From a virus, in the IMG/VR virus record IMGVR_UViG_3300024231_000024, positions 1 through 38,635 of that record: a stretch of 38,635 bases of DNA; one strand, 5' to 3'. The stretch's first letter is position 1. The number at the start of each line of letters is the position of its first letter. Below the pieces are notes generated by a model. The model was not told the origin of the DNA and did not search any database. It saw only the letters and a list, made by a program, of their open reading frames with translations. Of this stretch, positions 19,608 through 22,746 are shown one piece after another. The translations under genes were made by a program, and so were the position numbers.

Positions 19608-19824
19608 AGAGGTTAGAGATTGTTGGATTAATGGTATATTTATATCACCAGTAGCAATCAATACTATGCAAGATGTAAGGATAGATGTTTACAACATAGA
19701 GAACGGAAAATTGATAACAAGAAGAAAAGGTAATACAATCTTCAAACAAAAGACAAAGAAAGAAAAAGAAAAGATTTACGAAACAATATTAGAAGCATAT
19801 AAACATTATTACAACAAATTATGA
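19594..19824 (+). CDS. Small protein, function unknown
   Basis: 76 residues, overlapping the sigma-factor gene by 14 bp and the next gene by 4 bp. Sequence starts MINCKEVRDCWINGIFISPV; the C-terminus is basic and helical (KQKTKKEKEKIYETILEAYK). No domain is recognised. Confidence 0.6.
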   Translation: MINCKEVRDCWINGIFISPVAINTMQDVRIDVYNIENGKLITRRKGNTIFKQKTKKEKEKIYETILEAYKHYYNKL

Positions 19825-20288
19825 AAAAAGACAAGTATTACAAAGATTTAGAAGAAAAAGGTTATTACGATTCAATAGATAAACGTAGTAAAGATTACAG
19901 AGAGTACAAAGAATGGAAAGCTAAATTCCAGGAGAAAGAAGAAGTAGGTTTAGGTGATGTAGTAGAAAAGATTACTAAAGCTACAGGTATTAAAAAGGTT
20001 GTAGAGGCTATTACAGATGATTGTGGTTGCGAAGAACGTAAAGAGAAGCTAAATAAGTTTAGTGTTTGGGGTAGAAGAAAGTTAAATTGTATCTCTGAGG
20101 AAGACTACAACTGGTATGTTTCAGAAAACATTAAGAAAAAATCAAGGTGGAAGTTTAATGAGATAGAAAGATTAGTTTCTGTTTACAATAGTATATTTAA
20201 TACTAAAGTAAAGCCAAGCAGTTGTTCTTCTTGTGTAAAAAGCTACCAAGAGAACTTAAATAAGTACATTCAAATTTACAATTCATAA
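19821..20288 (+). CDS. Cys-rich conserved phage protein
   Basis: 155 residues. The centre has 'GLGDVVEKITKATGIKKVVE' and then DDCGCEERKEKLNK, a motif common in small Bacteroidetes phage proteins. The C-terminus has a CSSC pair. Three pairs or near-pairs of Cys (CGC, C, CSSC) could bind zinc. The function is unknown. It ends overlapping the HNH endonuclease start by one base. Confidence 0.6.
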   Translation: MKKDKYYKDLEEKGYYDSIDKRSKDYREYKEWKAKFQEKEEVGLGDVVEKITKATGIKKVVEAITDDCGCEERKEKLNKFSVWGRRKLNCISEEDYNWYVSENIKKKSRWKFNEIERLVSVYNSIFNTKVKPSSCSSCVKSYQENLNKYIQIYNS

Positions 20289-20926
20289 TGCGATTAATCT
20301 TTGATGAAATGAAAAAATGCAGTAAATGCAAAGAACTAAAAAGTTTCTCCTTATTTTATAAGGGTAAAATATTTAAAGATGGGTATAGACCTTCTTGTAA
20401 AAAATGTGATTCGTTATCAAGGGATATTGAAAAGAGAGATAAATATAATAAAGATTATTGGTTAAAAAACAAAGAGAGATTAAGTAAGAGAAATAAGGAA
20501 TATCGTAAAAAAAACAAAGAAAGTTTAGCTAAATACCAAAGTGAGTATAGTAAGAAGTGGTATCAAGAAAATAAACAGAGAATAAACAAAAGGAATAGAG
20601 AGCGAAAAAAAACGGATATTCTATACAGATTAAGGCGTGATATATCAACATATACTTCAAGGGCATTAAAAAAAAGAGGTTACACTAAGAAAAGTAAAAC
20701 ACACGAGATAATAGGTATTGATTATTATGGTTTAAAAATACACTTAGAAAATCAATTTACAACTGGTATGAATTGGGATAACAGGTCTGAATGGCATATA
20801 GACCATATAGTGCCACTATCATCTGCTAACACAGAAGAAGAATTAATTAGATTATGTCATTACACTAATTTACAACCCTTATGGGCTGAAGATAATTTAA
20901 AGAAAGGAGGTAAGTTATCAGACTAA
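20288..20926 (+). CDS. HNH homing endonuclease
   Basis: 212 residues. The first residues MRLIFDEM repeat the N-terminus of the exonuclease that follows. Then come a zinc-knuckle CSKC ... CKKC, a long Lys/Arg-rich helix (~50-115), and the nuclease 'WHIDHIVPLSSANTEEELI' with 'LCHYTNLQPLWAEDNLKK' (H-N-H order). It appears inserted at the very start of the exonuclease gene, keeping a copy of the original start codons at its own 5' end. An internal start at 'MKKCSKC' is also possible. Confidence 0.85.
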   Translation: MRLIFDEMKKCSKCKELKSFSLFYKGKIFKDGYRPSCKKCDSLSRDIEKRDKYNKDYWLKNKERLSKRNKEYRKKNKESLAKYQSEYSKKWYQENKQRINKRNRERKKTDILYRLRRDISTYTSRALKKRGYTKKSKTHEIIGIDYYGLKIHLENQFTTGMNWDNRSEWHIDHIVPLSSANTEEELIRLCHYTNLQPLWAEDNLKKGGKLSD

Positions 20927-21645
20927 TATTAGATGCAGATAGTTTAATTTATTCAGCTTGTTTTAATGTAGAAACATTAGATGAGGCTAAGAATAATTTT
21001 GATAACTATTTAGGTTACGTTTTAAAGGATTTAAGCGACATTTGTGAGTTTGATGATATTTGGATATGCAATGGTTCTAAAAACAACTTTAGGTTAGCTT
21101 TAAATAAGCAATACAAAGCTAATAGAACACAAGAAAGACCTGCATTTTTATCAGAATTACATAATCACGTAAAGAAAGAGTTTAATTCTTATTGGGTTGA
21201 TGGTTATGAAACAGATGATGTTGTTGCTACCTTATGGAAACAATCTTGCGATGAATTAGGTGAAAATAATGTAATTATTGCTGCAAATGATAAGGACTAC
21301 AAGCAATTTCCTTGTTGGTTTTTTGATACTTACTACTCCAGAAGAGAGTTGGTTAAGATAGAAGATTTTGAGGCTAAGTATAACTTTTATCATCAAATGA
21401 TAATGGGAGATACTGCTGATAATGTAAAATACTTTAAAGGTTATGGTAAAGCTAAAGCACATAAAATACTTAAAGGTGCTAAAACAGAGTTTGCTTTAAT
21501 TAGAAGAGTTTATAGTTTGTTTTTAGAGTTCTATAAAGATGAAGCTAAAGATAAATTTAATGAATGTAAAAAAATGTTAAAATTAGTAACTGATGTTAAA
21601 CAAATCAAACAGTATGAATCGTTCAAACAGGTATCGTCTATCTAA
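20914..21645 (+). CDS. 5'-3' exonuclease (PIN/FEN-like) lacking a normal start codon
   Basis: The open frame reads VIRLILDADSLIYSACF at its N-terminus, then FDDIWICNGSKNNFR, 'QYKANRTQERPAFLSEL', 'WVDGYETDDVVATL', 'NNVIIAANDKDYKQFP', and the helix-hairpin region 'YHQMIMGDTADNVKYFKGYG'. These acidic clusters (DAD, ETDD, DKD, GDTADN) are the metal ligands of phage FEN-type exonucleases. Normal homologues should start M-R-L-I-L-D-A-D; here the M position is ATC (20917-20919), with a strong AGGAGG at 20906-20911 just upstream inside the HNH gene. The first ATG in frame lies deep inside. See findings. Confidence 0.75.
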   Translation, partial: VIRLILDADSLIYSACFNVETLDEAKNNFDNYLGYVLKDLSDICEFDDIWICNGSKNNFRLALNKQYKANRTQERPAFLSELHNHVKKEFNSYWVDGYETDDVVATLWKQSCDELGENNVIIAANDKDYKQFPCWFFDTYYSRRELVKIEDFEAKYNFYHQMIMGDTADNVKYFKGYGKAKAHKILKGAKTEFALIRRVYSLFLEFYKDEAKDKFNECKKMLKLVTDVKQIKQYESFKQVSSI

Positions 21646-22369
21646 AGACGAAGAACAAATGCTTATGAATTATAGGCAAAACAATCAAGAATCAAGAGTT
21701 TTAGTTATAGGAGACACACATTGTCCTTTTGACTTAGATACTTATTTAGATTTCTTGGTAGATACTTACAATAAGTATAATTGTAATAGAGTTATACATA
21801 TTGGAGATGAATTAGACCATCACTATAGTTCATATCACGAAACAGATGCTAATGGTATGGGTGGTGGAGATGAGTTGTCTTTAGCTATCAAAAGGCTTAA
21901 TAGATATTACAAGCACTTTCCAGAGGTAGATGTAATTATAGGTAATCATAGTAGAATTATAATGCGTAAGGCTCAAACAGGTGGCATCCCAAGAGAATGG
22001 ATTAAGGATTATAATGAAGTGTTGCAAGTTCCTACTTGGAATTTCCATACAGAGTTAGAGGTGGATGGTGTGCTTTATGCTCACGGAGAAGGTGGTACTG
22101 CAAGGACTAAATGTAAAAAGGATTTACAGTCTATGGTTCAAGGTCATTTACATACACAACTTTATGTAGAGTACGTTGTTGGTAGAAACAATAGAATATT
22201 TGGTATGCAAGTAGGTTGTGGTATTAATCACGAAGAGTATGCTTTTGGTTATGCTAAGGCAGGGTTAAAACCTGCTATTGGGTGTGGTGTAGTGATAGGT
22301 GGTAAAGAAGCTATTGCAGTTCCTATGATATTAGAAGACTACAAAGAAACTAAATACCCTTTAAGATAA
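21593..22369 (+). CDS. Calcineurin-like metallophosphoesterase
   Basis: 258 residues. Metal-binding motifs in the family order: 'VLVIGDTHCPFD' (D-x-H), 'VIHIGDELDHH' (G-D), 'VDVIIGNHSR' (GNH), 'LYAHGEGGT' (H) and 'MVQGHLHTQ' (G-H-x-H). It could dephosphorylate DNA ends or nucleotides. Its overlap with the exonuclease suggests a shared role in DNA processing. The ATG at 21614 (MNRSNRY) is an alternative start with less overlap. Confidence 0.82.
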   Translation: MLNKSNSMNRSNRYRLSKDEEQMLMNYRQNNQESRVLVIGDTHCPFDLDTYLDFLVDTYNKYNCNRVIHIGDELDHHYSSYHETDANGMGGGDELSLAIKRLNRYYKHFPEVDVIIGNHSRIIMRKAQTGGIPREWIKDYNEVLQVPTWNFHTELEVDGVLYAHGEGGTARTKCKKDLQSMVQGHLHTQLYVEYVVGRNNRIFGMQVGCGINHEEYAFGYAKAGLKPAIGCGVVIGGKEAIAVPMILEDYKETKYPLR

Positions 22370-22746
22370 TGGCGAATAAAAAATACAAAACAAAAGAAGA
22401 AAGAGCAAATGCTATAAATTCTAATAACAGAAAATATTGGAAAACAAAGAAAGGTAAGTTAATGCTTACTTATAATAATATGAACAGGAGAGTTCGTGGT
22501 TATGTTAAGAGGCATATTTACAAGGGGTTAGATATTTTGGATAGAGATTTATTTTATGAATGGTCAATTAATAATGAATATTTTAATAAACTTTATGACA
22601 ACTGGGTTAAATCTGGGTATGATAGAAAATTATCTCCAAGTATAGATAGAATAAACTCAAATGATGGATATACATTAAGTAATATTAGATGGATAACTCA
22701 TAGTGAGAACTCAAAACTTGGCTCTATATCAAGACACAGTAATTAA
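22369..22746 (+). CDS. HNH-type homing endonuclease-like protein
   Basis: 125 residues. Basic N-terminus, then 'LSPSIDRINSNDGYTLSNIR' and WITHSEN at the C-terminus, the block typical of small phage HNH/AP2-type endonucleases where D-R-I and N-I-R-W are conserved. It starts one base inside the phosphoesterase stop. It is the third endonuclease gene in the genome interrupting a run of DNA-metabolism genes. Confidence 0.65.
   Translation: MANKKYKTKEERANAINSNNRKYWKTKKGKLMLTYNNMNRRVRGYVKRHIYKGLDILDRDLFYEWSINNEYFNKLYDNWVKSGYDRKLSPSIDRINSNDGYTLSNIRWITHSENSKLGSISRHSN

Follow-up and report, generated by a model that had tools for sequence, protein, structure and literature searches.

A homing-type HNH gene at the first codons of a phage exonuclease gene and a proposed Shine-Dalgarno-driven start at AUC

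How might a phage gene be translated when its frame opens without a usual start codon? The question is raised by a 38,635-nt viral sequence (IMG/VR record IMGVR_UViG_3300024231_000024, positions 1 to 38,635; hereafter the window), in which an HNH endonuclease gene runs into a 5'-3' exonuclease frame that has ATC where ATG is expected. An earlier reading of the letters (the original prediction) held that the HNH gene was inserted at the exonuclease start, and listed initiation at ATC driven by a Shine-Dalgarno (SD) sequence, termination-reinitiation, a -1 frameshift and a sequencing error as possible explanations. Here, we compare the locus with its relatives and weigh these explanations, together with others, against each other.

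The exonuclease frame has ATC where relatives have ATG

Positions 20914 to 21645 form an open exonuclease frame that begins V-I-R-L-I-L-D-A-D. It follows a TAA stop codon at 20911-20913, which sets the upstream limit for a start in, or a shift into, this frame. The intact gene (20917-21645, + strand, as are all features of the HNH-exonuclease locus given below) belongs to the FEN/Pol I 5'-nuclease family, with matches to PF02739 (5_3_exonuc_N, 4.7e-14), phrog_107 (3.7e-44) and Pol I 5'-nuclease models. Searches for exonuclease relatives in the genome_contigs collection returned none, and the PDB held no sequence relatives at E<=0.01. From 20914 onward, the frame contains no ATG, GTG or TTG before the TTG at 21349, which lies far past the conserved N-terminal motifs. 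Ordinary gene callers would miss or shorten an exonuclease that starts on ATC. At its 3' end (21593-21645), the exonuclease overlaps a metallophosphoesterase ORF, and 18 nt are absent here in L004, L005 and L009, which gives these loci a different exonuclease C-terminus.

We compared 80 related loci, one of which (L069) is truncated. Six carry the ATC and the other 73 have an ATG, in all cases exactly five codons before the DAD motif, the N-terminal Asp motif that is present in the readable exonuclease homologues. TTG is listed as a further start for 12 of the 73, and these 12 have the ATG at -5 as well. The homologous position in the window is the ATC at 20917-20919, which we infer to be the exonuclease start codon. 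The claim that the gene lacks a normal start was thus borne out, and homologues that normally start elsewhere, which had been named as evidence against it, were not found among the 73.

The ATC is found in four contigs that also carry the HNH gene (L001, L002, L003 and L007) and in two with a different gene upstream (L004 and L008). Including the window, this makes seven contigs, and the exonuclease frame is intact in all of them as far as they reach. When the junction was searched with a variable base in the start codon (pattern GGAGGTAAGTTATNAGACT), just the ATC forms and two unrelated contigs matched. A single base change at 20919 would give ATG, which had made a sequencing or assembly error one of the listed options. 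The same base recurs in six other contigs, each from a further IMG dataset, which excludes such an error.

The HNH gene carries an exonuclease start

The HNH ORF (20288-20926) encodes 212 residues, starting with MRLIFDEMKKC (sequence start MRLIFDEMKKCSKC). It is an endonuclease VII-like HNH gene, matched by phrog_1035 (1.2e-21) and displaying the HNH motif residues WHIDHIVPLS...NLQPLWAEDNL; Pfam and NCBIfam gave no match at 1e-3. The gene upstream (19821-20288, 155 residues, function unknown) ends in a TAA that overlaps the HNH ATG as TAATG. The same TAATG junction ties the upstream gene directly to an ATG-started exonuclease in L009 and L045, which lack the HNH gene and represent the empty site. 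A comparison with HNH-less relatives had been proposed as a check in the original prediction.

The first 19 nt of the HNH gene (20288-20306, ATGCGATTAATCTTTGATG) correspond to codons 1-6 of the exonuclease plus a G. In L001, this leader is identical to the exonuclease start of L005 at 19/19 nt, and the window leader agrees with it at 17/19. Similarity to HNH relatives in other phages starts only at residue 7 of the window ORF, and the leader is therefore an addition to the HNH gene. The comparison shows that the HNH ORF is fused to the ATG and the first six codons that formerly belonged to the exonuclease, and that it thereby uses the old exonuclease initiation site. The HNH ORF and the exonuclease starts of the relatives thus confirm that an HNH gene with an MRLI[LF]D leader sits at the exonuclease start.

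A second copy of the exonuclease start, ATC AGA CTA ATA TTA GAT G, follows the HNH gene. When the left flank of the window is joined at GATG to the right flank at CAGAT, a layout like that of L009 results. As judged from these alignments, the exonuclease now begins with a duplicate of its first codons that has ATC in place of ATG. The original prediction counted 12 of 16 bases alike between the two RLI[FL]D stretches, which is correct (14/19 over the longer stretch), and concluded that this is not a recent duplication. The stretches do differ, but the conclusion needs refinement: they are two versions of the same exonuclease start, the left one like that of HNH-less relatives and the right one carried with the HNH block, and in L001 they agree at 16 of 19 positions.

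The window and L001 share a block of 638 nt (20303-20940) that is 100% identical and carries the HNH gene, the SD sequence and the ATC, between flanks that diverge on both sides (exonuclease dS 0.148). Because the block is identical while the flanks differ, it is, on this comparison, the footprint of an HNH unit that has recently passed between two phage backgrounds, taking the ATC along, with conversion tracts that are very short. The element has an endonuclease domain, is sporadically present with an empty site, and has moved independently of its flanks, as free-standing homing endonucleases do. That it is of the free-standing homing type, recently moved and inserted at the first codons of the exonuclease, is well supported by these sequence relationships. 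An alternative would place the HNH ORF within a self-splicing intron or an intein whose removal restores the exonuclease. The position near the 5' end and the leader in frame with the HNH ORF would suit this, but an Rfam search of 20100-21100 for group I and II introns gave no match even at E<=1, the insertion is almost wholly coding, and the exonuclease start is duplicated, which leaves the alternative hardly credible.

Free-standing HNH genes of T4-like phages, such as mobE in Aeh1 nrdA and mobA in the T4 topoisomerase gene, likewise lie without an intron in conserved DNA-metabolism genes and are patchy among relatives, and the T4 mobE start likewise overlaps the upstream stop (UAAUG) (PMC2988022). 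In contrast to these, the insertion described here, at codon 6, captures the start codon of the target gene, which stays whole but with a non-AUG start instead of being divided into two protein halves. The ShiLan-type HNH in a phage methylase is also found within or at a host gene with no recognisable intron or intein (PMC11855218). In that case, the HNH lies concealed, out of frame, within a host frame that stays open, whereas here it is the first cistron and the host gene would have to be restarted.

In L004/L008 and in L005/L006, the place of the HNH gene is held by another gene of about 115-124 residues, function unknown, which we call gene X. In L005 and L006, gene X lies between the upstream gene and an exonuclease that starts with ATG. 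It had no match in the phage collection, and a viral_contigs scan matched only the L005 and L006 contigs themselves. Gene X of L005 contains GGAGGTAACCTTTCA, which agrees with GGAGGTAAGTTATCA at 12 of 15 bases. The SD-ATC junction may have originated from the HNH tail, with the ATG lost in the overlap of HNH gene and exonuclease, or from a deletion in gene X. A search for the origin of the shared tail found that the other contigs holding AAGGAGGTAAGTTATCA are unrelated.

An extended SD sequence precedes the ATC

The terminase of the phage is 49.5% identical to that of Nonlabens phage P12024L, followed by those of Riemerella phages, which points to Flavobacteriia as the most likely host, probably marine. 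In Bacteroidia, including Flavobacteriia, bS21, bS18 and bS6 sequester the 16S tail with the anti-SD, and an SD is absent from most genes (PMC9976891, PMC8710568). An exception is rpsU, whose extended SD (9-13 pairs, below -13 kcal/mol) is preferentially translated by ribosomes lacking bS21 (PMC9976891).

We confirmed the 16S tail CACCTCCTTTCT in many Flavobacteriaceae genomes. The sequence AGAAAGGAGGT at 20901-20911 pairs with this flavobacterial tail over 11 nt (-17.7 kcal/mol), and no other anti-SD match on the two strands of the window is as strong; in stretches L081, L083 and L088, too, it ranks first. Across the 43 gene starts tested, the exonuclease has the sole strong match, at -17.7 kcal/mol, with the next at -7.8 and the median at -0.8 kcal/mol. 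Of the options listed in the original prediction, SD-driven initiation at the ATC is the best. Three of 20 simulated windows had a stronger match somewhere, and strength alone is not rare. The notable point is location: the strong SD lies 6 nt upstream of the only gene that lacks a usual start codon. The AGGAGG motif at its core (20905-20910, within the codons AAA GGA GGT) occurs seven times on the + strand and twice on the - strand of the window. Its position 6 nt before the ATC had been read correctly, but describing it as a rare AGGAGG understated it: the match spans 11 nt, none in the window is better, and SD sequences are little used in this lineage.

We compared this sequence with seven rpsU leaders from flavobacterial genomes, which have a similar sequence, energies of -17.6 to -20.8 kcal/mol and a spacing of 7-10 nt. 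A flavobacterial rpsU leader reads TAAAGAAAGGAGGTGCCACT-ATG and the phage leader TAAAGAAAGGAGGTAAGTT-ATC. With 11 contiguous pairs and -17.7 kcal/mol, the phage SD falls within the definition of the rpsU type, except that the start is ATC and not AUG. The Flavobacteriales rpsU leader, autoregulated through bS21-free ribosomes (PMC9976891), has the near-same sequence AAAGAAAGGAGGT, and the phage pairing energy is within the rpsU range. The two differ in that rpsU has an AUG at 7-10 nt, whereas the phage exonuclease has an AUC at 6 nt and an SD inside the preceding coding sequence. A hairpin around the SD (GAUAAUUU...AAGUUAUC) was considered and rejected, since it is no better than in shuffled sequences and its left arm is missing in L004.

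The KKGGK codons that form the SD could serve the HNH C-terminus, with the SD present by chance. Retention of both SD and ATC in L004 and L008, behind a different gene, favours a function as far as these alignments tell, and represents one further arrangement only.

A proposed start at AUC

We propose, with a probability of roughly 0.6, that the exonuclease is started at AUC by SD-driven initiation, perhaps coupled to HNH translation. The homing-type HNH gene has inserted at the first codons of the exonuclease and now occupies its ATG. The 11-nt SD inside the last HNH codons would hold 30S subunits, or ribosomes newly released at the HNH UAA at 20924, and these would start at the AUC 6 nt downstream, giving an exonuclease with the N-terminus MRLILDADSLIY. 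The yield would be low and, less certainly, favoured by bS21-lacking ribosomes or by HNH coupling, because the anti-SD is normally sequestered and an SD this strong is typical of rpsU.

Among the points that weigh against this model, AUC initiates very poorly in E. coli, flavobacterial ribosomes are largely SD-blind, and a spacing of 6 nt is shorter than the 7-10 nt of the rpsU leaders read. In one set of constructs, initiation at AUC in E. coli reached 0.1-0.3% of the AUG level, and in clostridia 5-20% (PMC9680021); AUC has also been ranked within the seven strongest E. coli start codons (PMC12350097). Flavobacterial ribosomes are described as mostly SD-blind (PMC8710568, PMC9976891).

The HNH stop codon (20924-20926) follows the ATC at a distance of 4 nt. 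This overlap could allow termination-reinitiation independent of the SD, with ribosomes ending at UAA 20924 and restarting at AUC 20917 or AUA 20926. The TAATA at this point resembles TAATG overlaps elsewhere in the genome, and coupling has been proposed for T4 free-standing endonucleases (PMC2988022). Such a process overlaps with the SD-driven model, but it leaves the extended SD unexplained, and a restart at AUA would leave the N-terminus short by three residues compared with all homologues read. As the sole explanation, we regard it as distinctly unlikely.

The overlap of the two frames also suggested a -1 frameshift that would produce an HNH-exonuclease fusion. Known -1 frameshift sites have SD-like sequences upstream, as is the case here. 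The shift would have to fall between 20911 and 20926 (AAG TTA TCA GAC TAA), and the 13 nt between the TAA at 20911 and the HNH TAA at 20924-20926 contain no slippery heptamer (X XXY YYZ) and no plausible re-pairing; the predicted RNA fold is no better than in shuffled sequences (z -0.44). This option from the original prediction is therefore very improbable.

The main rival to SD-driven initiation at AUC is that the exonuclease is partly or wholly silenced, being dispensable or replaced by other nucleases, and that the ATC allele hitch-hikes with the homing element. As part of the identical block that moved recently, the ATC could spread without conferring any benefit. Between ATC-bearing contigs the exonuclease is conserved (dN/dS 0.04-0.06), but given the recent movement of the HNH block, this purifying selection may be older than the ATC itself. 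The allele is possibly young, and just 2 synonymous and 3 nonsynonymous changes separate the L001 and L008 exonucleases, too few to show constraint after the ATC arose. Against silencing stand the frame left intact in the seven contigs, the persistence of the ATC in L004/L008 without the HNH gene, and a strong SD that is correctly placed. We consider silencing unlikely.

A more specific proposal is that the exonuclease has come under 'specialised' bS21-free ribosomes: the homing element would have swapped an SD-less AUG for an extended SD and AUC, and the protein would be made mainly when anti-SD tails are free. We rate this as rather unlikely. If true, the rpsU-type switch would have a second user in Flavobacteriia, one that is not a ribosomal gene and does not start on AUG. 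The insertion itself is a variant of free-standing homing-endonuclease insertion, and the link to rpsU-type control is the interesting part.

The bacterial infC gene has a near-cognate AUU start that is conserved and regulatory. It resembles the phage exonuclease as a real gene with an AUN start; the phage AUC differs in lying at an insertion junction and being confined to one close phage group. Homing elements that split genes or flank them are known. The one in this phage appears to have taken the start codon of its target, which seems to survive on a hardly used start codon and a signal normally reserved for rpsU in the host lineage. If translation is shown, the exonuclease would be a natural AUC-initiated member of a known gene family. 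It would then also test, in nature, whether an extended SD can offset a poor start codon when ribosomes are SD-blind, and would add a second gene for probing bS21-free ribosomes.

HNH relatives adjoin exonuclease genes in other phages

To place the HNH gene in its family, we inspected 75 readable relatives in other viral contigs (loci L093-L168), many of them redundant. Since 69 of the 75 lie directly upstream of the start of a 5'-3' exonuclease, identified by Pfam and distantly related to that of the window, the genomic context suggests that this HNH family resides at, and perhaps targets, the exonuclease 5' end. The adjoining exonucleases start with GTG (38), ATG (30) or TTG (1). We considered whether HNH neighbours generally erode the exonuclease start codon. 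Exonucleases with no HNH detected upstream still start with 37 GTG and 36 ATG, and weak starts there are not attributable to the HNH gene because GTG is equally frequent without a detected HNH neighbour.

The window has a second HNH-like gene at 22369-22746 (phrog_1035, 2.2e-08; phrog_3377, 1.3e-06), directly after the metallophosphoesterase gene and starting on its last base. In relatives, a further HNH copy follows the terminase gene (L083:9371-9542, L084:2050-2221 and L087:1493-1664), where the window has none. The DNA of these post-terminase copies is 77% identical to the C-terminal part of the window HNH gene.
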